From assembly GCF_003614435.1 (NCBI RefSeq), contig NZ_CP025546.1, positions 1,798,001 to 1,862,000 on the forward strand: a stretch of 64,000 bases of DNA, written 5' to 3'. Both the position numbers and the translations under genes were made by a program. Source of the DNA: Mycobacterium paragordonae (lineage in GTDB: Bacteria > Actinomycetota > Actinomycetes > Mycobacteriales > Mycobacteriaceae). This document shows positions 28,239 to 42,180 of the stretch, piece after piece (the stretch's first letter is position 1; the number at the start of each line of letters is the position of its first letter). Below the pieces are notes generated by a model. The model was not told where the DNA came from and ran no database searches. It saw only the letters and a program-made list of their open reading frames with translations.

Positions 28239-28603
28239 GGGGCTGAACGGTTTCGACTTCGCGCATCGAATCAAGGGAAGCGTGCCGGTGCAGGCAAGAG
28301 ACCACCGTAAGCGTCGTTGCAACCATATAAGCGCCGATTCACATCAGCGCGACTACGCTCTCGCTGCCTAAGCGACGGCTAGTCTGTCGGACCGGGAACG
28401 CCCTCGCCCCGGACCCCGGCATCAGCTAGAGGGATCAACCGATGAGTTCGGTCGCGGGACTCATCGGGACACCAACAGCGACTGGGATCGTCATCCTGGC
28501 TAGTCCGTGTGACCAGGAGATCCGAGCAGAGACATAGCGGACTGCGCACGGAGAAGCCTTGAGGGAATGCCGTAGGACCCGGGTTCGATTCCCGGCAGCT
28601 CCA
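28239..28603 (+). ncRNA. ssrA: Transfer-messenger RNA (tmRNA)
   Basis: The 5' end GGGGCTGAACGGTTTCGAC pairs with the 3' end CAGCTCC through the tRNA-like acceptor stem. The T arm GGGTTCGATTCCC is at 28582-28594. The tag reading frame at 28333-28371 encodes ADSHQRDYALAA plus TAA, one residue short of the mycobacterial tag because the first Ala comes from the charged tmRNA. It rescues stalled ribosomes with SmpB. The terminal CCA is not encoded here (the sequence continues ACT), because the 3' end has been rebuilt by an integrated element. Confidence 0.96.
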
Positions 28604-28604
28604 C
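28584..28604 (+). repeat. attL: ssrA 3' end, left junction of the integrated element
   Basis: This 21-bp segment, from TTCGATTCCCGG to the end of the tRNA-like part, is repeated identically at 41439-41459. It is the T-arm/acceptor region, a standard target of tyrosine integrases. The integrase gene begins 79 bp further on. Confidence 0.92.
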
Positions 28605-28682
28605 TGTTTTACCAGCATAAACAATGCTAGATACAAAGTCAGTCAGCACCACGTCAGCACAGATGGCGCTAGGATGCCCGGC

Positions 28683-29777
28683 ATGGCTTTCATTCGTAGC
28701 CGCCTGCGCAAGGACGGCACCACGGTTTACGGCGTTACCTACCGCCTCGGCGGCCGTGGTAGTCGCCAGTCTTCGGTGACTTTCCCCGACGAGAAGGAAG
28801 CAAAGCGGTTCTGTGCGCTAGTGGCCGAGTTCGGCGCCGAACGCGCCCTAGAGCTGGCTGGGATCGCAGACACACAGCGCGCGGTCTCGTCGCTGACTGT
28901 TGCTGAATGGCTCGACCTACATATCGGCAGCTTGACGGGCGTGGAGAAGAAAACAGTCACCGAATACAAGCGGTACGCGGCCAGCGACATTGGCCCGGCG
29001 CTTGGCGCGATCCCCCTAGCGAAGCTGTCCCGCGAGGACGTTGCCGGATGGGTCAACGCGATGCGAGACGCTGGCGCTGCTGGCGGCACGATTGAGAACA
29101 AGCACGGGTTTCTATCGGGGGCGCTCAACCGTGCCGTCACCGCGGGACACTTAGCCGCGAACCCGTGCCAGGGCCTCCGGTTGCCACGCACCGAGGAGCG
29201 CGAAATGGTGTTCCTGACGCGCGAAGAGTTCCAGATCCTCAAGGCGGCGTTTAGTGGGCACTATCAGCCGTTGGTGGAGTTCCTGGTGGTGTCCGGCTGC
29301 CGGGCCAGTGAGGCGCTGGCGTTGAAGCCGTCCGATGTTGACCGCGAGAAGTCGACTGTCCGGATCGTTCGCGCCTGGAAGCGCGCCGGATCAGGCTACG
29401 AGCTTGGGCCGCCGAAAACGAAAAAGTCGGTTCGGACGATTAACGTGAGCAAATCAGTGCTTGACCAGCTCGACTACGGCGGCGAGTGGTTGTTTGAGGG
29501 CACAAACGGGCGACCAGTGCGGTTGTATTCGTGGCGCGCCAACGTTTGGTACAAATCTCTAGCGAAAGCGCAAAAGAACGGACTCAAGAAGTCACCCCGA
29601 ATCCACGACCTGCGCCACACGTGTGCATCGTGGCTGATCCAACAGGGCATTCACCCGCGAGTTGTTCAGGAACATCTAGGTCACGAGTCTATCCAGACCA
29701 CAATGGGCGTATACGGACATTTAGATCGGAGTAGCCACGCCGCTGCGGCCGACGCGATAGCCAAGATGCTTATGTGA
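28683..29777 (+). CDS. int: Tyrosine recombinase (phage-type integrase)
   Basis: A 364-residue integrase. An N-terminal arm-binding region comes first, then a SAM-like core-binding domain (about 70-150) and the catalytic domain (about 170-355). Active-site residues are visible: Arg in SGCRASEAL, His and Arg in HDLRHTCASWL, His in EHLGHES and the nucleophile Tyr in MGVYGHLD. ATG 28683 has AGGA 8 bp upstream; ATG 28674 is equally in frame and adds three residues. The gene starts 79 bp after the tmRNA 3' end and reads away from it. It should recombine attP with the ssrA 3' end. Confidence 0.95.
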   Translation: MAFIRSRLRKDGTTVYGVTYRLGGRGSRQSSVTFPDEKEAKRFCALVAEFGAERALELAGIADTQRAVSSLTVAEWLDLHIGSLTGVEKKTVTEYKRYAASDIGPALGAIPLAKLSREDVAGWVNAMRDAGAAGGTIENKHGFLSGALNRAVTAGHLAANPCQGLRLPRTEEREMVFLTREEFQILKAAFSGHYQPLVEFLVVSGCRASEALALKPSDVDREKSTVRIVRAWKRAGSGYELGPPKTKKSVRTINVSKSVLDQLDYGGEWLFEGTNGRPVRLYSWRANVWYKSLAKAQKNGLKKSPRIHDLRHTCASWLIQQGIHPRVVQEHLGHESIQTTMGVYGHLDRSSHAAAADAIAKMLM

Positions 29778-29780
29778 TCT

Positions 29781-29892
29781 GCGTCACCTTCCGAATGCGA
29801 TCTCTGCTTGTTGTCACCTTAACGAGCGATAATGAATTAGCACGACACGGCGGGGTCGGGCCGGTAGGCGCGAGAAAATGAGGCGTCACCTG
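29781..29892 (+). repeat. Three short direct repeats (TCACCT core) before the excisionase gene
   Basis: GCGTCACCTT at 29781, TTGTCACCTT at 29811 and GCGTCACCTG at 29883 share a GTCACCT core; the first two are 30 bp apart. They lie between int and the AlpA-like gene, where arm-type integrase, excisionase or repressor sites would be expected. A GATAAT at 29828 could be a -10 element. Function is unproven. Confidence 0.4.
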
Positions 29893-29916
29893 TAGCGTCA
29901 GAATGCAAATCACAGC

Positions 29917-30162
29917 ATGACCGAATCAATCCTGATTGGATACGCGGAAGTTTCCGCACTGACCGGCATACCGGTAAATACACTGAAAGACCACCACGGC
30001 AAACGCCGAGGGCTTGGACAGAAGTCGGCAGTTATTGCCGGCCGCGTGCGATTCCGCAAGTCGGATGTAATCGACTGGATAAATGATCAATTCGAGCGGC
30101 CCACTGAGGCTGTGGCCGAGCGCAGGTTTTCCCCGTTAGGCAAGCGATTGCTTAACGCTTAG
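29917..30162 (+). CDS. Helix-turn-helix protein, excisionase/AlpA-like
   Basis: An 81-residue protein with a winged-helix MerR/AlpA-type motif: GYAEVSALTGIPVNTLKDHH then VRFRKSDVIDWINDQ. Proteins of this type act as excisionases or as transcriptional activators in phages and satellites. The gene is the first after int on the same strand. Which of the two roles applies cannot be told from sequence. Confidence 0.75.
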   Translation: MTESILIGYAEVSALTGIPVNTLKDHHGKRRGLGQKSAVIAGRVRFRKSDVIDWINDQFERPTEAVAERRFSPLGKRLLNA

Positions 30163-30173
30163 ACGGGCTTGTC

Positions 30174-30611
30174 GTGACAATCGAATATACAAAGCCGCAG
30201 CTCAGCCAATCTGGTATGCTGAATATACCGGGTGACAATTGGAAACCCGTTCCGGGCTTATCGCCCACAATCGTTGCATCCGCTGACGGAATACTTAATC
30301 CGTCATTCGGGCCAGGCATCCGTTACCACCCGCGTTACGGGCTGTATGTCCCCGTGGCGGACGAACGGGTACCCAACGATGTCCTTATGCCGGTGCATCT
30401 ACTTGTCGCCGCAGCGTGGCTCTCGGCGCCGGATCACCTATCGGACTTTGAGCTGCGCAAGTTCATGCACTCCCTAGTGGTGCATAAGGACGGCAATAAG
30501 CTCAACAACCGGCGCGAGAATCTGGCGTGGTCGAGCTGTCCCGGTGAGGGTAGCGAGGCGTTCTATCGGTGGTTGATGAAGGCGCCGCCGTGGATGCGTA
30601 AGCAGCGCTAG
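30174..30611 (+). CDS. HNH-like phage protein
   Basis: The 145-residue protein, from GTG 30174, ends in a HNH-type motif of the phage NUMOD/HNH group. His and Asn residues are seen in VVHKDGNKLNNRRENLAW (about residues 108-125). The N-terminal half resembles the NUMOD-like WKPVPGL start that marks such proteins. It is probably a small DNA endonuclease or a DNA-binding derivative. No catalytic test can be made from sequence. It follows the AlpA-like gene by 11 bp. Confidence 0.7.
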   Translation: MTIEYTKPQLSQSGMLNIPGDNWKPVPGLSPTIVASADGILNPSFGPGIRYHPRYGLYVPVADERVPNDVLMPVHLLVAAAWLSAPDHLSDFELRKFMHSLVVHKDGNKLNNRRENLAWSSCPGEGSEAFYRWLMKAPPWMRKQR

Positions 30612-30653
30612 ACGGCGCTATAGGGAATGCCGCAAGGCATGGGAGAAAATTAA

Positions 30654-31244
30654 GTGAGTAGAGGGTTTAAGTTCGCATATCAGAAGGCGTTGCATGGCGT
30701 GAAGTTCGCCGGGGACGAGTACAGGGTCTTGATCACGTTGCTCGACTTCGCGGATGAACGTGGCGAGAACTGCTATCCAGGTATGCCGGCGCTGGCGGCG
30801 GCGGCTGATATCGGCGAAAGCACAGCTAGGCGGCATGTGAAGTCGTTGCAGGCGCGGGGGTATGTGCGAGAGAAGGCGCGCGGCCGTGGCGCGAAGGGGG
30901 CTAAGTCGGAGTATGTGCTGACACTGCCGGAAGTGCCGCTCAAAACTGAGCGCAACTCTGGGCAGGGTGGCGCTCAATCCGAGTCGGAGTACCGCTCAAT
31001 TCTGAGCAAAGTACCGCTCAATTCTGAGCAAAGTACCGCTCAATTTAGCAAACCGACACGCGACGCGACCAGCGGAAACAAGCCCCTATCAGATCATTAC
31101 CAGATCAAAGAACAGATCAGGGAACAGGGCGCGTTCGAACCAAAGGCGCTGCATGAGTGCGCCGACTGCTCACGGGCAATTACAGGCGATCCTCTAGAGC
31201 GGTCAGACGGCCGCCATGTCTGTGGCGAATGCCCACCGTTCTAG
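30654..31244 (+). CDS. Winged-helix replication-initiator-like phage protein
   Basis: A 196-residue protein from GTG 30654. Residues 1-85 form a helix-turn-helix domain (LITLLDFADERGENCYPGMPALAAAADIGESTARRHVKSL) of the kind seen in phage replication proteins and lambda O-like initiators. The middle (about 90-140) is encoded by an array of 22-bp iterons. The C-terminus holds a CADC...CGEC zinc-binding knuckle. An initiator with its own binding sites inside its gene is a known phage layout (lambda O). The replication role is inferred from that layout and the fold. Confidence 0.72.
   Translation: MSRGFKFAYQKALHGVKFAGDEYRVLITLLDFADERGENCYPGMPALAAAADIGESTARRHVKSLQARGYVREKARGRGAKGAKSEYVLTLPEVPLKTERNSGQGGAQSESEYRSILSKVPLNSEQSTAQFSKPTRDATSGNKPLSDHYQIKEQIREQGAFEPKALHECADCSRAITGDPLERSDGRHVCGECPPF
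30938..31049 (+). repeat. Iteron array with 22-bp period inside the initiator-like gene
   Basis: Units resembling GCTCAATTCTGAGC begin at 30950, 30972, 30994, 31016 and 31038, exactly 22 bp apart. The copies at 30994 and 31016 are identical; the outer ones are degenerate (11 of 14 at 30950, a 2-bp deletion at 31038). An extra copy, GCTCAAAACTGAGC, is at 30938. Each good unit is itself an inverted repeat (GCTCA/TGAGC). Since 22 is not a multiple of three, the repeats are read in changing frames, so selection is on the DNA. A replication origin is the likeliest reading. Confidence 0.8.
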
Positions 31245-31263
31245 GCAAGTAGGAGAGCACAGG

Positions 31264-31458
31264 ATGCAGAACTCAATTGATGTCATCGACAGCGGCGAGG
31301 GTGCGGCAATACGGATCATCTACCGCCCGAACGGGGTGACGCTCTATCAGGGACCGGGGCATGTGATCTTGTCACACGCAGAGGTAACAGAACTTATCGC
31401 CAAGCTAAGCGGCGCCGAACAACGGGCAAGACCGCGTAAGCGCTACCGAATGGCATAA
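31264..31458 (+). CDS. Small phage-element protein, unknown function
   Basis: A 64-residue protein with a good ribosome site (AGGAGAG) before ATG 31264. It reads as a short beta-rich N-terminal part, then VILSHAEVTELIAKLSGAEQ and a basic tail PRKRYRMA. The helix resembles that of the next two small proteins (LSDAETAKLIQQL, FTRADVITVANAL). No named family recognised. Confidence 0.62.
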   Translation: MQNSIDVIDSGEGAAIRIIYRPNGVTLYQGPGHVILSHAEVTELIAKLSGAEQRARPRKRYRMA

Positions 31459-31480
31459 ATAAGAGCCATAAGAGTGGAAC

Positions 31481-31645
31481 ATGATTGACATAGACATACA
31501 GAAGAACACGGATGGTACGACCACGGTCAGCATTCGGCTAAGCGACGCCGAAACCGCAAAGCTTATCCAACAACTAACCGAACCAAATAAACCGGAGACC
31601 GTAAGCCCTGCTAAGGCCCGCTTAATCCGGTACCGGATCGGGTAA
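31481..31645 (+). CDS. Very small phage-element protein, unknown function
   Basis: A 54-residue frame from ATG 31481 to TAA 31643-31645: MIDIDIQKNTDGTTTVSIRL followed by SDAETAKLIQQL and a basic end RLIRYRIG. The strand-then-helix layout matches the flanking small genes. Its stop overlaps the next ATG (TAATG), which supports it as a real coupled gene. Confidence 0.55.
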   Translation: MIDIDIQKNTDGTTTVSIRLSDAETAKLIQQLTEPNKPETVSPAKARLIRYRIG

Positions 31646-31842
31646 TGGCGGCCCTGAGAATCAACCCGGCCATACCCGGCGAGAACCACTACGTCATTGA
31701 TCAACACGGCCAACACATTGTGCTGAGCCGCACCAGCAGCAAGGGACGCGCAGCGAGCATCGCGTTCACACGCGCCGACGTGATCACCGTCGCGAACGCA
31801 CTGGTTGACCTCCTCGAACAAGAACAGGAAACAACAAATTGA
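31645..31842 (+). CDS. Small phage-element protein, unknown function
   Basis: A 65-residue protein of the same layout as its neighbours: a beta part (NHYVIDQHGQHIVLSRTSS) then a helix (FTRADVITVANALVDLLEQEQ). It overlaps the gene before by 1 bp and the gene after by 4 bp. The run of four similar small genes may have arisen by duplication. Confidence 0.58.
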   Translation: MAALRINPAIPGENHYVIDQHGQHIVLSRTSSKGRAASIAFTRADVITVANALVDLLEQEQETTN

Positions 31843-32045
31843 ATACCACCGTAATCAAGCCCGAAAGCTACGACTTCGCGCTTTGCGACGGCGACAACGG
31901 CAAGACCCTTATCGGCCTTCGGGTAAACACCCCGCACGGCGCCGTCGTGATCCCCTTGACGAGCGATGACGCGCTGTCGGTGGGTGCGATGCTTATCGCC
32001 CACAGCGATTACGTAGAGCGGCGGCCTGTGCGCACTTGGAACTGA
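31839..32045 (+). CDS. Small phage-element protein, unknown function
   Basis: A 68-residue protein from TTG 31839 with a beta part (ALCDGDNGKTLIGLRVNTPHG) and a helix (LTSDDALSVGAMLIAHSDYV). It is the last of four consecutive small genes and is followed 2 bp later by the HNH endonuclease gene. Confidence 0.55.
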   Translation: MNTTVIKPESYDFALCDGDNGKTLIGLRVNTPHGAVVIPLTSDDALSVGAMLIAHSDYVERRPVRTWN

Positions 32046-32046
32046 C

Positions 32047-32403
32047 GTGCAGCGCCCGTGCTTAGGCTGCGGGTGCCTGATCGCCAGCGGGTCACGCTGT
32101 GCGGGATGCCAACCTAGCCCGAAACGCACTGCACACCAACGCGGCTACACGTCAAGATGGCGAAGGTTGTCTGAGAAACAACGCAAGGCTTCTCCATTTT
32201 GTGAACGATGCGGAAGCCTCGAACGACTTGAGTGCGACCATATAATCCCGATCAACGAAGCACCTGCGCTGGCTCTAGAGCCGTTAAATACTCGGGTTTT
32301 GTGCCGGCGGTGCAATCGTGCGCGCGGCGGGAAAGCAACGCAGCAGGAGCGCACTCAAGTATTAGCGGCGCTTGAACAGGAGAGGGCCCGTAGAAGGCAT
32401 TAA
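32047..32403 (+). CDS. HNH endonuclease of phage packaging type
   Basis: A 118-residue protein from GTG 32047. The N-terminus has a Cys knuckle (CLGCGCLIASGSRCAGC). The HNH core is CERCGSLERLECDHIIPI followed by LNTRVLCRRCNRARGG, with two zinc CxxC pairs and the catalytic His in DHI. Such HNH proteins sit next to terminase genes in many HK97-type phages and help in DNA packaging. Here terminase is 1.5 kb downstream, after a membrane protein and two minus-strand genes. Confidence 0.88.
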   Translation: MQRPCLGCGCLIASGSRCAGCQPSPKRTAHQRGYTSRWRRLSEKQRKASPFCERCGSLERLECDHIIPINEAPALALEPLNTRVLCRRCNRARGGKATQQERTQVLAALEQERARRRH

Positions 32404-32463
32404 ACTCAAAGCGGATAGACTGAGGTCGACCGGACAGCTCAGGCTTGGGGGAGGCGCAATCAA

Positions 32464-33114
32464 GTGTTAATGGCCGTATTCGGCGCCCTTATTGGCGTCA
32501 TATTCACGACTATTGCTACCTATTTCTACGATGCTTCGCCCTTGAAAGATCGTGCCGCCTTAACCAAAGCTCGCCGAGCTACACGTCGATTAGATGAATT
32601 AAAAACTATTCAAAGGTATCACAAAGATCGCGCAGCTCTGAATAGCTACTTGCTCAGTCGTGTCCTTGTCGTCATCACCCTCTGGGCGTTCGGCGTCGCG
32701 GTCGATGCTCTGGTTGGACTATTCTTTAGCGGGAGATCGGGTTGGCTAACGTTTACCCAAGAGCCCAAGGTACTGACATCGCCAGCCGAAATGTTGCAGC
32801 AAGCGAAGCAAGCAGCAGTCTATGCCAAGTGGGGTTCTGCCATCGACTTCGGCACCAATGTTTTCTTCGTTGTCGTCCTCGTCTTTACCGTTCGTGCTGG
32901 CTTGGCCGCTCGCAGATTGTGGCGTCAAACAGAACAATACGATGGGTTGCAGGACCAGATTGAGACAACCATCCTAGAGTTAGAAGCATCCATCAGCGCC
33001 GACAAGTTCGGCGGCCACAAAAAACGTCAAGAGGCCGTCGGTAATATTCGCAGCCATGACAACCGGGATCAAGATCAAAGCGGGCACCGTGGCGACGCGC
33101 AATCCGGCGATTAA
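32464..33114 (+). CDS. Membrane protein of unknown function, element cargo
   Basis: A 216-residue protein from GTG 32464 after a GGGGGAGG site. Hydrophobic segments lie at about residues 3-20, 65-87 and 130-152. A charged helical stretch (TKARRATRRLDELKTIQRYHKDR) separates the first two, and a coiled-coil-like tail (QDQIETTILELEAS) follows the last. It has no phage structural features. Lying between packaging and capsid genes with AT-richer codons, it looks like cargo, for instance a superinfection-exclusion or abortive-infection protein; that is a guess. Confidence 0.62.
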   Translation: MLMAVFGALIGVIFTTIATYFYDASPLKDRAALTKARRATRRLDELKTIQRYHKDRAALNSYLLSRVLVVITLWAFGVAVDALVGLFFSGRSGWLTFTQEPKVLTSPAEMLQQAKQAAVYAKWGSAIDFGTNVFFVVVLVFTVRAGLAARRLWRQTEQYDGLQDQIETTILELEASISADKFGGHKKRQEAVGNIRSHDNRDQDQSGHRGDAQSGD

Positions 33115-33160
33115 ACTGCGATTTGCTGCGTTAACTCGGCCAACCGAGGCGCTGCTTGTG

Positions 33161-33182
33161 GGGCGGGACCCCGCGCCCGCCC
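33161..33182. terminator. Hairpin between convergent genes
   Basis: GGGCGGG (33161-33167) and CCCGCCC (33176-33182) form a perfect 7-bp stem around an 8-nt loop. It lies between the ends of the membrane-protein gene (+) and the minus-strand pair, so it could stop transcription from both sides. Confidence 0.5.
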
Positions 33183-33214
33183 TACTGAGACTCGGACAGC
33201 CAGCGCAGGGGCAG

Positions 33215-33544
33215 TTACTCTCCCGGATCGGCGTCCTTGGACATGGTGTCAACCAGCTTGCCCAGCGTGTCCATCATAAATTCTTGCGTGAGCACAAGAT
33301 TTTGCGATTTCGCCATACCTAACGCGATTTCAATCACGTAGTGAACGAGAAGGGCACCACCCTCGGCGGTTAACTGTAGCTGCTCGTAAGCTCTAGCCGC
33401 GCCAGGCGAAAAGACTAATTTTTCTTCTCCTTCGGCGGCCTGGGCCAGATCTAGTTGCAAGAATTTTCTCCGGCTTTCGCCACGATTTATGGCGTCGACA
33501 ATGGCTAAGGCTCGCCGCATTCCTTCGATTTCCGATTGCTTCAT
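33215..33544 (-). CDS. Small minus-strand element protein (paralogue A), unknown function
   Basis: A 109-residue helical protein from ATG 33544: MKQSEIEGMRRALAIVDAINRG, then a middle with YEQLQLTAEGGALLVHYVIEIAL and a tail MDTLGKLVDTMSKDAD. It shares the opening RRALAxxxAIxxG and overall layout with the next gene, so the two are distant paralogues. Its start overlaps the stop of that gene by 4 bp. These are the only minus-strand genes in the left and middle of the element. Confidence 0.62.
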   Translation of the reverse strand: MKQSEIEGMRRALAIVDAINRGESRRKFLQLDLAQAAEGEEKLVFSPGAARAYEQLQLTAEGGALLVHYVIEIALGMAKSQNLVLTQEFMMDTLGKLVDTMSKDADPGE

Positions 33545-33849
33545 TGCTTGTCCTGATCGTTCAGCCATTCGCCGTACTCAGCGATTTGCGCTGCGATGGA
33601 TTGACCTGTCGCTAGTTCAACCTTCTGCATCGCCCAATAAGCGATCAGCGCTGCCGACTGCGCCTTGAGGCCCTCCTGGCGATACGCCTCGAATGTAATC
33701 GGCACACTCGAAGCGTTACCTCCGGTTTTGTAGTCCTTAAGGTCGTCGACCATGTATTTCCAAACCGGCTGGCCGCTGTCGATTGCACCAATCATTGCGA
33801 GTGCTCGTCGGCGCGCATCAATTGCCTCCGGCGGTACTTTTTCAGTCAC
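33541..33849 (-). CDS. Small minus-strand element protein (paralogue B), unknown function
   Basis: A 102-residue protein from GTG 33849: VPPEAIDARRRALAMIGAIDSG, then FEAYRQEGLKAQSAALIAYWAMQ and an acidic end WLNDQDKQ. Only 14 bp separate its start from that of the divergent terminase gene, and it has no visible ribosome site, so it may be leaderless. Regulator, anti-phage factor or interference protein are all possible; none can be shown. Confidence 0.6.
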   Translation of the reverse strand: MTEKVPPEAIDARRRALAMIGAIDSGQPVWKYMVDDLKDYKTGGNASSVPITFEAYRQEGLKAQSAALIAYWAMQKVELATGQSIAAQIAEYGEWLNDQDKQ

Positions 33850-33863
33850 AATTAGGAGTCTAG

Positions 33864-35324
33864 GTGAGAGCAGGCCCAAAACGGGCGGTCAATGAGAGTG
33901 TTCTACCGTTTCGGCCACGGTCGAGCGGTTCGGCACGGTTCGCCGCGTTCTGTACGAAGTACGTGACGGTGCCAAAGGGCACGGGCAGCGGTGGCCCGCT
34001 GAGGTTGCGACCGTGGCAGCGCGAGCTGGTCGGGTCGGTTCTCGACGCCGATGTACAACCGCGCGTCGCCGGTTGGTGCTTACCCCGCGGCCAGGGCAAA
34101 AGCACGCTTGTCGCTGCGCTCGGCTTGTACGAGCTGATGACTGGCGGCGAGGGCGCGACAGTGATCGTGGCCGCAGTAGACGAGCGCCAGGCGGGCATCG
34201 TGTTCGGCGTCGCGGCTCGAATGGTCGAACTGAACCCGGATTTGGCGAGCCGCGTGCAGGTCTTCAAAGACCGGCTTGTGGTGCCATCGCGCGGCGCGTC
34301 CTTCACCTGTCTACCGGCGTCACCGGCCGCGCTAGAGGGTCTGGACTACACCCTTGCAATCGTTGACGAAATCGGCCGCGTGTTGCTTGAAACGTGGGAG
34401 GTAATTGCTCTCGCGCAGGGCAAGCGAGCACGTTCGACCCTGATTGGGATAGGCACGCCAGGCCCGTCCGACGAAAGCGTTCTAGCCCGGTTACGGGCTT
34501 ATTCGCTTGAGCATCCCGAGGACGCATCTCAGGTTTACCGGGAGCACAGCGCCGCAGGATTCGAGGACCACCCGGCCGATTGCGAACACTGCTGGGAGCT
34601 GGCTAATCCGGCTTTAGACGACTACCTGCACCGGGACGCGCTGCGGGCATTGTTGCCACCGAAGTCGACCGAGGCGCACTTTCGGCGGGCGCGGTTGTGT
34701 CAGTTCGTCGGGCCGATGGAAAACGCGCTGATCACTGCTGACGCGTGGGACAACCTCGGCACCGGCATGGCTATACCGGACGGCGCGGACGTGGTGCTTG
34801 CGGTTGACGCGAGCCTCCGCGACGACACCACGGCTATCACGGTGGGAACGGTGGCGAAGGTGCCGCACTTCGACAAGGCGGCCGTGTTCATCAACCCCGG
34901 TGATGAATCGTGGCGAGTTGACGTGCTCGCTGTCGAGGACGCGATTCGGCAGGCGTGCAAGCGGTGGAAAGTGCGCGAAGTCGCATACGACCCGTACTTG
35001 TTCACGCGATCCGCGCAAATACTCGCGGCCGAGGGTCTACCAATGGTGGAATTTCGCCAGTCCCCGGCCAGGCAAACGGCAGCAACTAATGACCTGCGCA
35101 ATGCGCTTATCAACGGGCAGTTGACGCATTCGGGTGAAGATGATCTACGGCGCCACGTACTTGCCGCCACCGTGCTAGAAACCGATAAAGGCTTAAGGAT
35201 TGCTAAGGCCGGCCGAAGCAGGCACGCCCCGAAAATCGACTTATGTACTGCGCTGATGATGGCGCATAGCCGGGCGACGTGGCTCGCTTCCCAAAAGAAA
35301 CGCTATCGCTACGGCGGCGCGTAG
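33864..35324 (+). CDS. Phage terminase large subunit
   Basis: A 486-residue packaging motor from GTG 33864 with AGGAG 5 bp upstream. The ATPase domain has Walker A LPRGQGKSTLVAAL (about residue 73) and Walker B TLAIVDEIGR. The nuclease domain has catalytic Asp residues in LAVDASLRDDTTA and APKIDLCTALMMAH, with a middle Asp in VAYDPYLF. It would cut and translocate DNA into the capsid. No separate small subunit is recognisable next to it. Confidence 0.93.
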   Translation: MRAGPKRAVNESVLPFRPRSSGSARFAAFCTKYVTVPKGTGSGGPLRLRPWQRELVGSVLDADVQPRVAGWCLPRGQGKSTLVAALGLYELMTGGEGATVIVAAVDERQAGIVFGVAARMVELNPDLASRVQVFKDRLVVPSRGASFTCLPASPAALEGLDYTLAIVDEIGRVLLETWEVIALAQGKRARSTLIGIGTPGPSDESVLARLRAYSLEHPEDASQVYREHSAAGFEDHPADCEHCWELANPALDDYLHRDALRALLPPKSTEAHFRRARLCQFVGPMENALITADAWDNLGTGMAIPDGADVVLAVDASLRDDTTAITVGTVAKVPHFDKAAVFINPGDESWRVDVLAVEDAIRQACKRWKVREVAYDPYLFTRSAQILAAEGLPMVEFRQSPARQTAATNDLRNALINGQLTHSGEDDLRRHVLAATVLETDKGLRIAKAGRSRHAPKIDLCTALMMAHSRATWLASQKKRYRYGGA

Positions 35325-35342
35325 AAAGACAAACAACTGAAT

Positions 35343-36719
35343 ATGAGTTCTGACCTACTAGTGGAGCTATGTCGCTCGCTCGACGCGCCCCAGCATCGCT
35401 ATACGCAGTTAGACGCTTACGCCAGCGGTAAGCAACCGTTGGCGTATTTAAGCCCCGGCGCCAAGCTAGCTTTGCCGAAGCTAAGCCGGATCGTGTCGAA
35501 CATCCCGCGACTTGCGGTCACTTCCCTTGCCGAGCGGCTGCGGATTACCGGCTTTAAGGGCGCTGACGTTTGGGCCGATTGGTTGGCGAACGACCTTGAC
35601 CAGACGGCGACGATTCTGCACCGGGAGGCGCTGCTGTTCGGCGACGCTTACGTGATCTGTTGGTCACGGCCAGATGGTTCGCCGCTGGTCACGGTGGAGT
35701 CCCCGCGCCAAGTCGCGGTGATCAAAGACCCGGCTACGCGCGAAATCACATCGGCGGTGAAGCGTTGGACAACCAAGACGACGACCGAGGCGCGGGTATA
35801 TCTGCCCGACCGGATTGAACATTGGCGCGCTAATACGACGGGTGCCGCAGCTCCGGCCTTCTCGTTGGTTGACACGCTGGACAACCCGCTAGAAACAGTT
35901 CCTGTCGTGAGCTTTTGTAACGCGGATCGGATTCTTGGGTGCGGGCATTCGGAGATTGACGACCTTATTCCGCTGGTGGATGGGCTGAATAAGACTCTTG
36001 CTGATTTGGCGGTGGCGCAGGAGTACACGGCGCGTCCGCGTCGGTGGGCGACGGGCATTGACCTCATGGAGGAGCCGGTGCTTGACGACGACGGTAACCC
36101 GGTGGTTGAGGACGGCGAACCCGTAATGAAGGTTGTTAATCCGATTCCCGAGGATTGGCGGACCATGTTCTCCGAGAGGCCGGAGTCAAAGTTCGGCCAG
36201 CTCGAAGGGGCGAACCTGGCGGGTTACCAGAACGCCGTGAATATCTGGCTGGGTCAAATCATGGCGGTGTCGGCGCTTCCGGCGCACTTTGTGGGGATCA
36301 CCACCGAGAACCCATCAAGCGCCGACGCGCTACGGGCCAGCGAAGCGTCGCTAACCGCCCGCGCCGAGGCGCGGCAAGCAGTTTTCGGCCGGTCCTGGGA
36401 GCGCGTGGCGCGACTCATGGCCGCCATTCGTGACGGCAGTGACGCGGACTCGGTTGACGTGAAGGTGCAGTGGTGCGATCCGTCGTCACGCTCAGCAGCC
36501 GCCGACGCCGACGCGGTAACAAAGCTTGTCCAGGCGGGCATCCTGTCGAAGTCGGGCGCCCTACGGAAGCTCGGCTATTCCGAAAGCGACATTGAGCAAG
36601 AGCGCCAAGATACGGAGCTGGACGCGCAAGCGGGCGCGAATCCTGAGGTTTCCGCTGCTTACCGCAACTATGCGCAAATGCTGCTCACCAAAGACAAAAC
36701 CGAGGGAAACATTCAATGA
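35343..36719 (+). CDS. Phage portal protein
   Basis: A 458-residue protein of the SPP1-gp6-like portal family. Typical features are the N-terminal AYASGKQPLAYLSP, the core NIPRLAVTSLAERLRITGF, and the wing/stem part with FVGITTENPSSADALRASEASL followed by an acidic tail. Portals form the dodecameric DNA gate of the capsid. It starts 18 bp after terminase and overlaps the next gene by 4 bp, giving the usual order terminase-portal-scaffold-capsid. Confidence 0.92.
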   Translation: MSSDLLVELCRSLDAPQHRYTQLDAYASGKQPLAYLSPGAKLALPKLSRIVSNIPRLAVTSLAERLRITGFKGADVWADWLANDLDQTATILHREALLFGDAYVICWSRPDGSPLVTVESPRQVAVIKDPATREITSAVKRWTTKTTTEARVYLPDRIEHWRANTTGAAAPAFSLVDTLDNPLETVPVVSFCNADRILGCGHSEIDDLIPLVDGLNKTLADLAVAQEYTARPRRWATGIDLMEEPVLDDDGNPVVEDGEPVMKVVNPIPEDWRTMFSERPESKFGQLEGANLAGYQNAVNIWLGQIMAVSALPAHFVGITTENPSSADALRASEASLTARAEARQAVFGRSWERVARLMAAIRDGSDADSVDVKVQWCDPSSRSAAADADAVTKLVQAGILSKSGALRKLGYSESDIEQERQDTELDAQAGANPEVSAAYRNYAQMLLTKDKTEGNIQ

Positions 36720-37207
36720 GTGAGGACACGCGGCCAGATGCCGCAGACGACACCCAAATCAACGCCGAGGCCGACGAAATCGGCGCGGCGAACACAGATA
36801 CCGCTGATGCGGTTGAAAATGCGCCAGAAGCGCAATCAGACGGCAATGCGGATGACTCCGCAGGCAACACCTTTCCGCGCACATACGTGGAGGAACTGCG
36901 CAAGGAATCAGCCAAGCACCGCGAGCGGGCCAGGCAAGCCGAGGAACGCGCCGACGCGCTCGCTCGACGGCTTCACAGCGAGCTTGTGCGGGCAACCAAC
37001 AGGCTTGAGAATCCCGCCGATTTGCCTTATGACGCTGAGCATCTGGACGACCCAGAAATGCTCAAGTCAGCACTCGACGCGCTGCTAAGCGACCGGCCTT
37101 ATTTCCGTAAGCGCAAGGTAGCCGGAGATGCCGGCCAGGGTCCGCGCGGCGGCGGGCAGGCACCGTTTAGCCTGCTTGGCGCCATCAAGGGCACCGTCAA
37201 TACTTAA
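36716..37207 (+). CDS. Scaffold-like protein
   Basis: A 163-residue protein. It has a very acidic N-terminus (DTRPDAADDTQINAEADEI), a charged coiled-coil helix (VEELRKESAKHRERARQAEERADALARRL, about residues 60-90) and a Gly-rich, basic tail. Composition and position between portal and major capsid match capsid scaffolds. No protease gene is seen, so the scaffold is probably removed without a dedicated phage protease. Confidence 0.78.
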   Translation: MSEDTRPDAADDTQINAEADEIGAANTDTADAVENAPEAQSDGNADDSAGNTFPRTYVEELRKESAKHRERARQAEERADALARRLHSELVRATNRLENPADLPYDAEHLDDPEMLKSALDALLSDRPYFRKRKVAGDAGQGPRGGGQAPFSLLGAIKGTVNT

Positions 37208-37248
37208 TTTACAAACACAACTGAATAACAATTTAATAGGGGTAAATA

Positions 37249-38103
37249 ATGGCAATTGAAGTTACTGCCAATAATGGCACGCTTCTACAGTCGCAGGTTG
37301 CGGACCTTTTGGTTCAGCCGCTTGCGCAAGAATCAACGTTTCTGGCCGCTGGCCCGCAGATTTTCGACACCAACGACCAGCTCCGCATTCCGCGCCTGGC
37401 GTCAGGTGTGTCGGCGGGATTCGTAGGCGAGGGCGTACAGATCAGCGACGGAGACGTGAGCTTTGACGAAGTGACGCTGCTTCCGTCCACGCTTAAGTCA
37501 CTCAAGGTGTTGGTCCGTTTCTCGAATGAAATGGCGCGACAGTCGGTGGTGGCCTTGGATGCGACGCTTAGGCAGACGCTGGTGACCAACGTCGCCGAAG
37601 CGCTGGACGCCGCGCTGTGGGACGGCGCCGGTGCGTCGAACACCATCAAGGGCATCCTGCGGGCCACCGGCGTTGCTACCGGCACGCTGGATTTGACCGA
37701 CGCCGACAGCCTGATTGACGGCCTGGCGACGGCGCAGGGCAACAAGGTCAGCCCCACGCATTGGGTCATGACAGCCGCAAGCTTCGCGAAGATTCGCAAG
37801 TTGAAGGTCGGCACGGATGACAACCGCTACGTCATTGATCCGTCCACGATTCAGAACGGCACCGCTTTTCAACTGTTCGGGTTGCCGGTCATCATCACTG
37901 ACAACATCCCGGCCGCGTTGACTAAGAACCGGGTTGCTCTGGTCGACTTTTCGAAGGTCGCCGTGGCGCGTGACGTTGACGCTGAGGTCAAGATTTTGGA
38001 CCAAACGTGGGGCGACTACGACAGCGTTGGCATCCGGGTAGTGACCCGCTATGACGTTGGCCTGTTGCAGCCGAAGGCTGTGACGCTGCTGACTGAGGCT
38101 TAG
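37249..38103 (+). CDS. Major capsid protein, HK97 fold
   Basis: A 284-residue HK97-type capsid protein. Family features are the N-terminal arm with PLAQESTFLAAGPQIFDTND, the E-loop/spine region VGEGVQISDGDVSFDEVTL and LLVRFSNEM-like helix text, then HWVMTAASFAKIRKL and FGLPVIITDNIP in the P and A domains. It ends YDVGLLQPKAVTLLTEA. There is a modest ribosome site before ATG 37249. The element can therefore probably build its own head. Confidence 0.93.
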   Translation: MAIEVTANNGTLLQSQVADLLVQPLAQESTFLAAGPQIFDTNDQLRIPRLASGVSAGFVGEGVQISDGDVSFDEVTLLPSTLKSLKVLVRFSNEMARQSVVALDATLRQTLVTNVAEALDAALWDGAGASNTIKGILRATGVATGTLDLTDADSLIDGLATAQGNKVSPTHWVMTAASFAKIRKLKVGTDDNRYVIDPSTIQNGTAFQLFGLPVIITDNIPAALTKNRVALVDFSKVAVARDVDAEVKILDQTWGDYDSVGIRVVTRYDVGLLQPKAVTLLTEA

Positions 38104-38105
38104 TC

Positions 38106-38423
38106 GTGGCGGCGCCGACGGCATCTGAGCTTGGCGCGTTTGTCGGCCGTGAGCTTGATGGCGGGCAAGCTACGGCCGTGCTCGGCATCGTCTCCGCGAT
38201 GGCGGCCAGTTATACGCGCGGTCAAGGCTATTCCGATGGCGAACCCAACGCTGACGTGCGCGCGGTCATCCTGTCGGCGTCGGCACGGTTGCTCGCGGAC
38301 ACGTCTCAGATCGTTTCTGAGGAAGCAGTTGGCCCGTTCAGCGTGTCGTACCGGGCCGGATTTGATGGCTGGTCGGTGGCAGAGCTGGCGGTGCTCAACA
38401 GGTATCGCGTACGCGCTCTGTAG
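38106..38423 (+). CDS. Head-tail connector-like protein
   Basis: A 105-residue helical protein from GTG 38106, 2 bp after the capsid stop. Sequence such as LGAFVGRELDGGQATAVLGIVSAMAASYTRGQGY and NADVRAVILSASARLLADTS matches the gp6-like/gp15-like connector pattern of HK97-type phages. It is the last intact structural gene; the following bases contain no convincing gene before an IS. Confidence 0.8.
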   Translation: MAAPTASELGAFVGRELDGGQATAVLGIVSAMAASYTRGQGYSDGEPNADVRAVILSASARLLADTSQIVSEEAVGPFSVSYRAGFDGWSVAELAVLNRYRVRAL

Positions 38424-38638
38424 GAGCGCAAGAGACTTGCCGCGCGAAGGAAGTGCGGTAAGGCGATTAGGGCACCCCGCGGCGGGGTGTACCTATCGCA
38501 GCCGCCGGGGCAATCGGCCTCGGCGGTCGTAAACAAAACGTCACTGTCGCCAACTGGCGAACCGACGAAGCGTTTGCGGCTGACACAAAAGTGTGTCAAG
38601 ACAACGGGTCGGGTTTGCGTGCGGGGTTTTACTAGTTA
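38424..38638 (+). other. Gap after connector gene, possible ORF remnant
   Basis: No gene with a proper start is visible. One frame (38471-38635) without a start codon reads protein-like near its end (NVTVANWRTDEAFAADTK) and stops at TAG 38633. A short hairpin (CACCCCG/CGGGGTG) is at 38473-38489. It may be the decayed end of a head-completion gene. Confidence 0.35.
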
Positions 38639-38697
38639 CTTCGACCTGAAAAAGTCAGGGCGTGGCGGTGGCTGAATTGGGCTTTGTTTGACGAGAT

Positions 38698-38738
38698 GAT
38701 GGCCTCGAACCCTTGGGCTAGAAGGGATCGAGGCCATC
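38698..38738 (+). promoter_or_regulatory. Hairpin abutting the transposase start
   Basis: GATGGCCTCGA (38698-38708) and TCGAGGCCATC (38728-38738) form a perfect 11-bp stem whose 3' arm touches the GTG start codon. The GAAGGGA ribosome site lies in the loop. Such hairpins in IS elements can limit transposase translation from outside transcripts. Confidence 0.6.
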
Positions 38739-40130
38739 GTGCTTAGAACTGTAAATGACCAGTTGTCGTTGTGGGATGCAATCCTGCCGCCGGAGCTGTT
38801 GGTGTTACCGAGGGAGTTGGGGCGGGTAGACGCGCTGCTAGATGATCCGGTGTTCTTCGCGCCGTTCACGCCGTACTTCGACACCCGTATCGGTCGTCCG
38901 TCGATTCCGATGGAGACCTATCTGCGGATGATGTTCTTGAAGTTCCGCTACCGGCTGGGCTTTGAGGCGTTGTGCCGTGAGGTCGGCGATTCGATTTCCT
39001 GGCAACGGTTTTGCCGGATTCCGTTCGGGACGCGTGTGCCGCACCCCACCACGCTGATGAAACTGACCACTCGGTGTGGGGACGCTGCAGTGGCCGGCCT
39101 CAATGAGGCCTTGTTGGCCAAGGCCGCCGACGCCAAACTGTTGCGCACTGACAAGGTGCGTGCTGACACCACCGTGGTTGAGGCCGCAGTGGCCTATCCG
39201 ACCGACTCGGGGCTCCTGGCCAAGGCGGTGACCACGATCGCCCGCACCATCACCCGCATCCACAACGCTGGCGGGGCGGTGCGTACCCATGCCCGTGACC
39301 GCAGCCGCTCAGCGGGCCAGCGGGCCCGCTCGATCGCCTCCAAACTGCGGCTTCGCGGTGCGGTGGCCCGTGAGGAAGCTCAAGCCGTGGTCGCGCGGAT
39401 CACCGGGGAGTTGGCCGGCATCGCCGAATCGGCGATGCGGGAAGCGGCCGCGGTGCGGCGCAATGCCCGCCGGGCTGTGCGCAACGCGACCGGGGTCCGC
39501 CGGGCTCGGCTATCTCGAGCGATCAACGACTTGGCCGCGATCATGGATAAGGCCCAACGCGTGGTCACCCAAGCCCGTAGCCGCCTGACCGGGGTGATGC
39601 CGGACTCGGCGAGCCGGCTGGTCAGTTTCCACGACCCCGATGCCCGCCCGATCCGCAAAGGACGACTGGGCAAGCCCGTGGAGTTCGGCTACAAAGCCCA
39701 GGTCGTCGATAACGCCGATGGAGTCATCCTCGACCACAGCGTCGAGATCGGAAACCCCGCCGATGCCCCGCAGTTGGCTCCAGCGATCGCCCGGATCACT
39801 CGCCGCGCCGGCCACGCCCCCAGGGCAGTTACCGCCGATCGCGGCTACGGATACGCCTCGGTCGAAAACGATCTGCACGAGCAAGGAGTCCGCCATGTCG
39901 CGATTCCGCGTGCCAGTAAACCGAGTGCCGCTCGCCGCGAGTTCGAACACCGAAAAGCGTTCCGCGCCAAAATCAAATGGCGAACCGGATGCGAAGGACG
40001 CATCAACCACCTCAAACGCAGCTACAGCTGGAACCGCACGGAATTGACCACCCTCACCGGAGCCAGGACCTGGTGCGGACACGGGGTGTTCGCCCACAAC
40101 CTCGTCAAGATCAGCGCCCTGGCCTCATGA
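38739..40130 (+). CDS. ISNCY-type DDE transposase
   Basis: A 463-residue transposase from GTG 38739. The N-terminal DUF772-type domain is visible (RIGRPSIPMETYLRMMFLKF, then FCRIPFGTRVPHPTTL). The DDE domain carries Asp in KVRADTTVVEA, Asp in VTADRGYGYASVE and Glu in GCEGRINHLKRSY. A long Arg/Ala-rich insert separates the first two. The frame is intact, so the copy may be active. Family naming is from remembered homologues. Confidence 0.9.
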   Translation: MLRTVNDQLSLWDAILPPELLVLPRELGRVDALLDDPVFFAPFTPYFDTRIGRPSIPMETYLRMMFLKFRYRLGFEALCREVGDSISWQRFCRIPFGTRVPHPTTLMKLTTRCGDAAVAGLNEALLAKAADAKLLRTDKVRADTTVVEAAVAYPTDSGLLAKAVTTIARTITRIHNAGGAVRTHARDRSRSAGQRARSIASKLRLRGAVAREEAQAVVARITGELAGIAESAMREAAAVRRNARRAVRNATGVRRARLSRAINDLAAIMDKAQRVVTQARSRLTGVMPDSASRLVSFHDPDARPIRKGRLGKPVEFGYKAQVVDNADGVILDHSVEIGNPADAPQLAPAIARITRRAGHAPRAVTADRGYGYASVENDLHEQGVRHVAIPRASKPSAARREFEHRKAFRAKIKWRTGCEGRINHLKRSYSWNRTELTTLTGARTWCGHGVFAHNLVKISALAS

Positions 40131-40267
40131 CAACAAACTCCCGCCAGCACCGAGCACCCGCCGTCACTGCCACCGACGAAGCCGTCGCCATCAACCCTTT
40201 TTCAGGTCGAAGTAGTTACCCGCGTTTCGTCAGCGCAGCCCGGCTTGCTCTCTACCTTTCTGGGAGA

Positions 40268-40310
40268 CGGCCCCCGGCGTGCAAGGAACACGCAGGGGGC
40301 CGTTCTCTTT
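40268..40310 (+). terminator. Intrinsic terminator of the structural operon
   Basis: CGGCCCCC...CGTG pairs with CACG...GGGGGCCG around a short loop, followed by TTCTCTTT. It is strong and placed just after the IS, at the end of the capsid operon; it faces the minus-strand genes beyond. Confidence 0.75.
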
Positions 40311-40498
40311 AGTTGGTCGCCGCCGTCGCTGCGGCTATCGCGGCGCCGAGGGCGTCCCGGAGGCGGGTCGCTTCTGCGATGCTCAGCGGCCCGTCAGGGG
40401 TGAACCGGCCCCACAGCGATGGTGCCGTCTTCGTAAAGGCGGACATGCATGTCGCCTGCCCATGAGCGCCCGTCGGCGGGTACGTCGATTCGGAACAA
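40309..40498 (-). pseudogene. Probably frameshifted small element gene
   Basis: Two overlapping minus-strand frames look like halves of one protein. The first, from TTG 40498 (AGGAG 6 bp upstream) to 40394, encodes FRIDVPADGRSWAGDMHVRL then YEDGTIAVGPVHP. The second, to TAA at 40309, continues RFTPDGPLSIAEATRLRDAL then GAAIAAATAATN. A +1 or -2 slip in the GGGG at the junction near 40410 would fuse them into about 62 residues. Alternatively the second frame is an independent 45-residue gene from ATG 40446. Confidence 0.5.
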
Positions 40499-40635
40499 CG
40501 TGGTCTCCTGTCGGGTCGGCCCGACTAGAGAGGTTCGCGGGCACTGGCACGGATCGTAAGCCTTTCGCGCCGAAAAGTGTTGCAAGTCAACCAAAGTCGT
40601 ACACGCCGTGTACGGCTGATCTGCCCACATGGGCT

Positions 40636-41256
40636 TCAATCAGCGCCCTCACCCTCGCCTTCGTCGTCATTTTCCGCCTCGGGGGCGGCGGCCAACAATT
40701 CTCCCGGCACTTCAAACAGGTTGCGCAGCAATAAAGTTGTGAAGTTCATAACGCGCTGCGCCGCAGCTTCATCGACGCGTTGATCTGTGGCGTGAGCGCC
40801 CAGGTTGCCCACCATGCGAATATCGTGGAGGGCCTCGCCGAACTGCCTTGTAACGAATCCTTGCTCAATGAGGCTGCGGATTCTGCCCACTAGGTTGCGG
40901 CCTTGCACTTCAAAATGAGCGGCCGCAGCTTCGAGCGTGCGCCTTAGCTGCACGGCTGCGGCGTCGGGCACTCCGGCGTCAAGCACTCGACGTGCATCGT
41001 TGAAATATCTGTCGACGTCTTCCGGTAAGTGGCGTATGTGGTGCTTGAGGTCGGCGTCGGCGGGATACGCACCGATCTCACGCGGGGTGGTGCCGGGGAT
41101 GGTGTGCTCGACAATCGTCAGGCGGCCGCAGTCGGGGCATTGCAGCACCGATTGAGTGATCGGCCCTCCCGATATGGATTTAAAGACTCTATCGGTGACC
41201 ACTTGAACCATCTGGGCGCGCCGTAGGCCGCAGTGCCCACACGTGCGTATTCCCAT
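40636..41256 (-). CDS. DUF4145 protein with N-terminal zinc ribbon
   Basis: A 206-residue protein from ATG 41256: MGIRTCGHCGLRR and later LQCPDCGRLTIVEH give a four-Cys zinc ribbon (residues 6-55). A helical DUF4145 domain follows (about 85-190, VQLRRTLEAAAAHF and MVGNLGAHATDQRVDEAAAQ), ending in an acidic tail. The frame is open to an ATG at 41382, so up to 42 extra residues are possible. DUF4145 is common in mobile elements and restriction-type loci; its activity is unknown. It is the last gene before attR, a usual cargo place. Confidence 0.78.
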   Translation of the reverse strand: MGIRTCGHCGLRRAQMVQVVTDRVFKSISGGPITQSVLQCPDCGRLTIVEHTIPGTTPREIGAYPADADLKHHIRHLPEDVDRYFNDARRVLDAGVPDAAAVQLRRTLEAAAAHFEVQGRNLVGRIRSLIEQGFVTRQFGEALHDIRMVGNLGAHATDQRVDEAAAQRVMNFTTLLLRNLFEVPGELLAAAPEAENDDEGEGEGAD

Positions 41257-41438
41257 ACTCGGGTGAAAGCCCACGGCTTGATCATTCCACCCGTAGACCG
41301 GGTTTCGGGGCACGACGCTCCGGACTGGGCTGGCGTGCTGACGGCGGTCAGCACATGTCCCTGTTCGGCCGTATTTTCCCATGTCGAGTCATGCGCAACC
41401 ATCGCGCGTTTGCGCAGCTCAACCGCGTTATATGCGGC

Positions 41439-41459
41439 TTCGATTCCCGGCAGCTCCAC
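41439..41459 (+). repeat. attR: right junction of the integrated element
   Basis: Identical over 21 bp to the tmRNA 3' end at 28584-28604. The base before the repeat differs (C here, G in ssrA), as does the base after (C here, T in ssrA), fixing the limits. The following CG continues toward an encoded CC, closer to the CCA expected of an uninterrupted ssrA. Confidence 0.92.
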
Positions 41460-41470
41460 CGAGAAAATTG

Positions 41471-41505
41471 CTGGTCAGAGTCAGAGACTCTGGCCAGATT
41501 TCTTT
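41471..41505 (+). terminator. Displaced terminator, probably the original ssrA terminator
   Basis: CTGGTCAGAGTC and GACTCTGGCCAG form a 12-bp stem with one T-G pair and a 3-nt AGA loop (41471-41497), followed by ATTTCTTTT. It starts 11 bp after attR, exactly where the terminator of an uninterrupted tmRNA gene would be. Confidence 0.8.
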
Positions 41506-42044: not shown

Positions 42045-42155
42045 GCATTGACGCCGTCAAAACCCGGAAACACAACCGCAGGTAACGCGACGTACTGAAC
42101 GGGCCAAACTGGAACGAACCGGCAGTTCAGAGCCCAAAAGCCCTGGCTTAGATGC

Positions 42156-42180
42156 GGGTTCGATTGACGGCAGCTTTACC
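42156..42180 (+). repeat. Degenerate copy of the ssrA 3' end
   Basis: GGGTTCGATTGACGGCAGCT followed by TTACC matches the tmRNA 3' end at 17 of the 21 att positions, plus the three G before it. It lies in a 270-bp gene-free stretch (42045-42315) and may be the scar of an older integration. Confidence 0.5.

Follow-up and report, generated by a model that had tools for sequence, protein, structure and literature searches.

The 64,000 bp window analysed here, positions 1,798,001 to 1,862,000 of contig NZ_CP025546.1 of Mycobacterium paragordonae (a genome of 7.22 Mb in five contigs), carries a mobile element inserted at the 3' end of ssrA, the gene for transfer-messenger RNA (tmRNA). Based on its sequence and that of its relatives, this element is, with a probability of roughly 0.9, a phage satellite that encodes its own tyrosine integrase and heads only, and that probably borrows tails from a helper phage. 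A capsid-forming satellite had already been proposed in a preliminary description of the window, and this proposal is supported by the recurrent size, common end point and lack of recognised tail genes among the relatives described below, from which we infer the borrowing of tails. The 21-bp ssrA repeat, which that description had taken to bound ~12.9 kb, was confirmed: the string TTCGATTCCCGGCAGCTCCAC occurs as an exact copy at 28584, at the end of a tmRNA gene identified by both ARAGORN and Rfam, and again at 41439 (Table 1). When the match is extended from 28580 and 41435, 24 of 25 bases agree, and only ~1e-4 exact 20-mers would be expected by chance between two 10-kb arms (estimate, 1e8/4^20). 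The element measures 12,855 bp, or about 11,275 bp without an insertion sequence (IS) and its dinucleotide. A degenerate third copy of the ssrA 3' end (84%) lies at 42155-42179, 720 bp past the right attachment site (attR), and another genome, G006, has a second exact 21-bp copy 778 bp past its ssrA end; these extra copies are perhaps remnants of an older insertion.

Family matches to the open reading frames (ORFs) of the element bore out most of the gene inventory given previously, i.e. an integrase, an AlpA/Xis-like protein, an initiator-like protein, HNH proteins, a large terminase (TerL), a portal, a capsid and a connector, whereas the IS and a gene encoding a DUF4145 protein had been overlooked. 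Several small ORFs are located between the initiator-like gene and the HNH gene of the packaging cassette. The assignment of a scaffold-like protein is upheld by its aligned family members (Table 1), whereas the 163-aa window protein itself produced no match at E 0.01 (one at E 0.1). In agreement with the reported absence of tail, lysis and tape-measure genes, no tail or tape-measure family was matched by the scanned ORFs of the element, and the sole lysis-labelled match was a weak Rz-like one to a 216-aa membrane protein.

An integrase, an AlpA-like protein and replication genes are typical of capsid-forming phage-inducible chromosomal islands (cfPICIs). These islands are furthermore described, in the cited passages of two papers, as encoding HNH, TerL, portal, capsid and connector proteins but no tail, and as combining their own heads with borrowed tails (PMC10690885, PMC11389934). 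The window element corresponds to them in its capsid, portal, TerL, HNH and connector genes, in the lack of a recognised tail or lysis module and in the presence of an integrase and an attachment repeat at one chromosomal site, a likeness of descriptions rather than of sequences. It differs in that family scans recognised neither a head maturation protease nor a separate small terminase (TerS), a scaffold-type protein being present instead; with regard to the protease, three of 123 non-core ORFs of relatives matched phrog_1522.

A sister element (L129) occupies ssrA in Mycolicibacterium rhodesiae JS60. It lacks the IS, its repeats are spaced 11,152 bp apart, and its products are 67% (integrase), 41% (Xis), 53% (HNH), 58% (TerL), 70% (portal), 57% (scaffold), 89% (capsid) and 60% (adaptor) identical to those of the window element. 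The L129 repeat is likewise exact over 21 bp, with one base unlike that of the window in both of its copies. The GTCAGCAC motifs present beside both attachment cores, in the window element and in L129, are probable integrase arm sites. The preliminary description had suggested a search for an empty ssrA site in related genomes, and such a junction was found in G006, where ssrA runs straight into the downstream flank (89% over 651/656 bp). In G036 and G031, ~86 kb and ~63 kb, respectively, separate the end of ssrA from the downstream sequence that matches this flank, so larger elements may use the ssrA site too. A 10,649-bp element from IMG/VR (L134) is 95% identical to the window over 33191-38599; ratios of nonsynonymous to synonymous substitution rates (dN/dS) against L134 are 0.055 for TerL, 0.091 for portal and 0.063 for capsid, which shows purifying selection on these three genes.

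Table 1. Features of the ssrA element, in window coordinates
Feature	Position	Strand	Basis
ssrA (tmRNA), intact, tag ADSHQRDYALAA; 3' end is the attachment site	28239..28604	+	ARAGORN, Rfam RF00023
attL core, 21 bp exact	28584..28604	+	Repeat comparison
Left arm, two GTCAGCAC repeats, probable integrase arm sites	28605..28673		Motif recurs at right arm and in L129, by eye; function inferred
Tyrosine integrase	28674..29777	+	PF00589 (9e-23), phrog_1; 67% to L129; 54.6% to phages ZoeJ, Milly, Findley
AlpA/Xis-like excisionase or regulator	29917..30162	+	phrog_66, 5e-6; Pfam HTH_17 below cut-off
HNH_3 protein	30174..30611	+	PF13392, barely above cut-off
Replication-initiator-like protein (O-like winged helix)	30654..31244	+	phrog_391 (2e-10), PF13730
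HNH endonuclease, packaging cassette	32047..32403	+	PF01844, phrog_144; weak phrog_4581 (labelled small terminase)
Accessory membrane protein (cargo), 216 aa	32464..33114	+	No Pfam family; weak Rz-like phrog_9841, E 0.013
Two small accessory genes (33215-33568, 33541-33879) between HNH and TerL	33215..33879	-	No family; 99% identical in L134; minus-strand ORFs at the same place in L129
Terminase large subunit (TerL)	33864..35324	+	PF20441, PF03354, phrog_9
Portal protein, SPP1 gp6 type	35343..36719	+	PF05133, phrog_104
Probable head scaffolding protein, 163 aa	36716..37207	+	12/19 aligned family members match scaffold PHROG phrog_4708
Major capsid protein, HK97 type, 284 aa	37249..38103	+	PF05065, phrog_10
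Head-tail adaptor Ad1, last recognised head-cassette gene	38106..38423	+	phrog_137, 5e-6
IS, 1,578 bp, 18-bp terminal inverted repeats, transposase 38739-40130	38637..40214	+	PF05598, PF01609
DUF4145 protein, candidate anti-phage defence cargo	40636..41382	-	PF13643; PADLOC PD-T7-4, 7e-12
Right arm, inverted GTCAGCAC motif adjoining attR	41333..41438		79% match to L129 over 41333-41478
attR core, 21 bp exact	41439..41459	+	Repeat comparison

To place the element among its relatives, the capsid was searched for in 198 genomes of the genus (including that of the host), a relative being defined by at least 65% identity over nearly the whole length. Some capsid match was present in 83 of the 198, and capsids 65-77% identical were found at 25 loci in 23 of the 197 other genomes, leaving out a partial match in G037 (72% over 92 residues). 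Around these and some weaker matches, 32 stretches were fetched, plus one around a second capsid of the host genome, each reaching ~8-12 kb to either side. The gene order HNH-TerL-portal-scaffold-capsid-adaptor was complete in 29 of the 32, the exceptions being L052, which runs into the end of its contig, and both L039 and L063, which lack some parts. In 13 of these 29 relatives, HNH and TerL are within 7 bp of each other, which leaves no gene between them. The integrases are diverse (22-55% identity, undetected in some), and among the insertion sites are tRNA genes for Ser, Val, Phe, Arg, Gly, Ala, Tyr, Asn, Pro, Leu, Lys and Met. In L063 (G037), a normal-size element at tRNA-Ala, the reading frame of the first 92 capsid residues runs on into a 1,033-aa ORF, and only part of the portal is present.

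An attachment repeat could be assigned in 24 of the fetched relatives, of which 23 measure 10,050-11,320 bp and one 13,741 bp; three of these repeats are weaker or lie outside tRNA genes (L041, 21 bp; L045, 13 bp; L059, 16 bp). The eight loci without an assigned repeat are L039, L048, L050 (16.1 kb repeat), L052, L053, L056, L061 and L062. A scan of named genomes, which shares genomes with the fetched set so that the counts are not additive, returned 68 loci from Mycobacterium (in the wide sense), Gordonia, Nocardia, Tsukamurella, Brevibacterium, Cryobacterium, Arthrobacter, Janibacter, Tetrasphaera, Isoptericola and uncultured Actinomycetes. In 36 of them the element is bounded by a repeat, 18 bp or longer, that overlaps a tRNA or tmRNA gene; 35 of these measure 9,437-11,319 bp and one 16,126 bp (median of the 36, 10,573 bp). 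Among 126 capsid-profile relatives in IMG/VR, 56 of the best 80 were located on contigs of 9-13 kb, the longest contig being 26,234 bp. A capsid gene 43.7% identical to that of the window is carried by a 249.7-kb plasmid of Tsukamurella tyrosinosolvens (NZ_LR134447.1:151509-152339), possibly a satellite on a plasmid.

The relatives were also examined for tail genes. The gap between adaptor and attR is 92-1,463 bp in 23 of the 24 relatives with an assigned repeat, and therefore too short for a tail module. None of the 23 families matched by 16 ORFs in this gap, from 13 elements, carried a tail label (14 have no described function). As the fetched stretches extend only ~8-12 kb per side, much longer elements would escape the repeat test, and it is to those that the tail test applies. 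In a further 32 loci (27 named loci without a tRNA repeat, L090 and four from IMG/VR), 64 of 220 downstream ORFs in 19 loci were covered, and no tail-labelled family occurred among the 25 families listed out of 36; a single endolysin-labelled match was obtained. Head-closure and connector matches were seen in these two sets of ORFs, and many of the families listed have no described function. Two further family listings comprised 25 of 80 and 25 of 73 families. The preliminary description had named, as evidence for a decayed full prophage, the finding of tail and lysis genes from the same phage at this site in close relatives; a search for such genes found none.

Extrachromosomal forms are suggested by L154, a 10,302-bp metagenomic contig and one of 120 loci holding both TerL and capsid, in which the genes are permuted, with TerL at the start, HNH at the end and the integrase after the adaptor. 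Such an order would be expected of a circular molecule, or of linear virion DNA with its ends at a cos site between HNH and TerL. An integrase beside the adaptor in L320 and L323 was considered as a circular junction and set aside, integrase-like matches lying to the right of the capsid in some other loci. In L208, part of a 26-kb IMG/VR contig, HNH and TerL follow a capsid gene, as if two satellites were arranged in tandem.

Several observations weigh against a tail-borrowing satellite. In addition to the lack of a recognised separate TerS, dN/dS against L134 is higher for the scaffold (0.45) and the adaptor (0.37), with few changes; a tRNA repeat was not found in 32 of the 68 named loci, several of which are on short contigs; and no terminally redundant contig was seen among 129 IMG/VR loci, some of which are cut stretches. 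In the host genome, no tape-measure gene scored above the cut-offs of PF10145 and PF20155, and therefore no resident helper was recognised.

The IS bears on whether this particular copy still moves. The host genome holds six identical copies of its transposase (three each on contigs C1 and C2), all six with the same terminal inverted repeat and a matching flanking dinucleotide (by eye). Since the IS makes this copy longer than 35 of the 36 measured relatives, it may package poorly. The element could accordingly belong to a satellite lineage and yet be immobile here, its IS overfilling the head or upsetting the right end; this view, which is compatible with the satellite reading, has a substantial chance of being correct, if somewhat short of even. 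It is favoured by the length of 12,855 bp compared with 9.4-11.3 kb in 35 of 36 relatives, and by L134, which is 95% identical over the cassette and likewise contains foreign DNA after the adaptor, with an IstB-like gene (by eye). Conversely, the IS lies outside every recognised gene and attachment core, and L060 (13.7 kb) and L090 (16.1 kb) are long too, though these may be composites. On the minus strand at 40312-40639, a short ORF, the reading of which seems to carry on in another frame (by eye), may be a small gene that has been disrupted.

Spread without tails, by a route resembling gene transfer agents or vesicles or in heads made by another satellite that shares the cell, was judged very improbable. 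A second capsid-bearing element of the host genome (described below), in which no terminase or portal was recognised among ten ORFs scanned, speaks for it, as heads could therefore be shared. However, a head-tail adaptor was recognised in 66 of the 68 named loci, and a head-closure or connector gene also in some relatives, parts that would be useless without tails, while self-targeted integration is unlike a gene transfer agent. Least credible is the decay of a full-length prophage through loss of tail and lysis genes: the IS sits downstream of the adaptor, where tail genes would start, and the head genes stand in phage order (compare phage Aegeus), but this explanation is rejected in view of IS-free relatives of 9.4-11.3 kb without recognised tail genes, the same end point and size at many tRNA sites in many species, the IS-free ssrA sister ending at the same point, the purifying selection on TerL, portal and capsid, and the lack of a close capsid among the phage records searched.

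If the element is a satellite that borrows tails, its neck proteins may point to the donor. Its proteins were compared with 50,697 phage records, including the integrase, terminase and capsid comparisons that the preliminary description had suggested. The integrase is 54.6% identical to those of cluster K-type phages, and the capsid is without a close match (at most 27% among the 20 matches listed out of 99, and below 60% in all 99). TerL reached at most 32% (among the 25 listed out of 746) and the portal at most 35% (among the 25 listed out of 2,189). Only two phages, Aegeus and Baudelaire, matched the window adaptor at E 0.01 (48% over 77%); Aegeus belongs to the Vilmaviridae, phages of 70-84 kb, and has its head genes in comparable order. 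A relative in M. septicum (L094) carries a stopper-like gene behind the adaptor, for which all 38 record matches are mycobacteriophages, the best being MaryV and Cosmo (45% over 98%). Among these matches, the five for which lineage was checked (MaryV, PegLeg, Kumao, Rey and Reindeer) are all Vilmaviridae, and three of the other matches are M. abscessus prophages. The stopper-like gene of L091 matches the same phage set in the 10 records listed out of 36.

Profile comparisons with five phages (Aegeus, PegLeg, MaryV, ZoeJ and Che8) gave adaptor scores of 38 bits for Aegeus, 17 for PegLeg and 6 for MaryV, with ZoeJ and Che8 absent from the matches, while none of the five was significant with the capsid profile. 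The window portal scored 81 bits with Aegeus, 65 with ZoeJ, 59 with MaryV and 30 with Che8, the PegLeg portal being outside the stretch compared. The adaptors of L043 and L060 had no phage match, which counts against a general Vilmaviridae signal. An adaptor-profile search of IMG/VR (143 relatives, best 80 kept) returned contigs of at most 26.3 kb and no helper, and a protein search with the same profile yielded 1,760 clusters, of which the 120 listed are nearly all unnamed or hypothetical, with no helper among them. From the neck-protein matches, the Vilmaviridae are tentatively put forward as the likeliest tail donors.

Capsids appear to have been swapped between satellites. Forty further loci were fetched, the capsids of which are 24-32% identical to that of the window; a repeat overlapping a tRNA gene was found in 19 of them, bounding 8,627-10,939 bp in 18 cases and 12,349 bp in one. 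Seven loci (L257, L259, L262, L271, L275, L279 and L280) combine a window-type portal (45-76%), scaffold and adaptor with a capsid of another lineage, TerL being recognised in six; L280 is the clearest case (portal 76%, TerL 58%, capsid 23%). The second satellite-like element of the host genome (G000:C1:2977384-2987840, about 7385-17841 of L064) is inserted in tRNA-Leu(CAA) with a 23-bp exact repeat and measures 10,434 bp. It encodes a capsid of the other lineage (27% to the first), an adaptor, a primase, Xis and an integrase, and ten ORFs were scanned for a terminase or portal, with none recognised.

Small mycobacterial elements bearing capsids are represented by phiRv1 and phiRv2 (~10 kb). 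By their general descriptions, these resemble the window element in size and in possessing a capsid, whereas phiRv1 uses a serine integrase (a reference title in PMC10654092) and the window element a tyrosine integrase. Candidate Mycobacterium PICIs have been reported as regions with an integrase and a capsid but no full phage, some at tRNA genes and some with terminase and scaffold (Abad et al. 2023, PMC10654092). The window element, which has an integration gene and a major capsid gene in one phage-like region, would be classed with them, and its family is probably among these candidates. In the cited passages of that paper, three tyrosine-integrase examples sit in tRNA genes and related capsids occur in otherwise dissimilar elements, no size class or neck analysis is given, no helper is proven and phage induction of mycobacterial satellites is said to be undemonstrated. 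Many actinobacterial prophage-like elements below 15 kb are suggested to be potential satellites (PMC10023795, cited passage).

The Streptomyces satellites MulchRoom and MiniFlayer, as described in part of PMC10690885, encode TerL, portal, scaffold, capsid, head-tail adaptor and HNH, with no protease named there; in MulchRoom, which possesses a tyrosine integrase, the heads are small and the tail is as long as that of the helper. By description, their head gene set is that of the window element, but they differ in size (14.8-17.4 kb), direct terminal repeats, a TerS gene and virulent helpers, and their authors judged them not directly related to predicted Actinomycetota PICIs. Cluster K phages have a related integrase (ZoeJ, Milly and Findley, the last being K2-like) but are, unlike the window element, full tailed phages, and subcluster K1 phages are recorded in the cited part of PMC3203893 as integrating in tmRNA with a 24-bp core. 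For ZoeJ, the portal matched clearly, but neither the capsid nor the adaptor gave a significant match. The preliminary description knew of no account of this ssrA element; outside PMC10654092, PMC11389934, PMC10690885 and PMC10023795, the literature search, which mostly left subscription papers aside, found none for this family or for a Vilmaviridae helper, although the class itself is published as candidate PICIs. Capsid-forming PICIs, Streptomyces MulchRoom and candidate Mycobacterium PICIs are thus already published; what is added here is the narrow size range seen across Actinomycetota, the pair of ssrA elements, the apparent exchange of capsids among satellites and the lead, from neck proteins, to a Vilmaviridae helper.

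In the proposed life cycle, infection by, or induction of, a suitable phage would cause the element to excise through its integrase and Xis-like protein, and the initiator-like protein would start its replication. Its scaffold, capsid and portal would build small heads of its own, which its HNH protein and TerL would fill, probably from a cos-type site, and which its adaptor would close. The filled heads would then enter the tail pathway of the helper phage, from which the stopper, tail and lysis functions would be supplied.

Now that exact ends, a sister free of the IS, an empty site and a candidate helper family are available, the question of which phage supplies the tails is directly testable. 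A broader and more speculative reading is that minimal satellites throughout the Actinomycetota, held to ~10.5 kb by their own small head, may be specialised to Vilmaviridae tails, having kept Vilmaviridae-like neck proteins as a plug, while their capsids would be freely exchanged among satellites and gone from the phage world. If the Vilmaviridae are indeed the helpers, these phages and the related M. abscessus prophages would carry a large class of mobile elements able to bear anti-phage genes.

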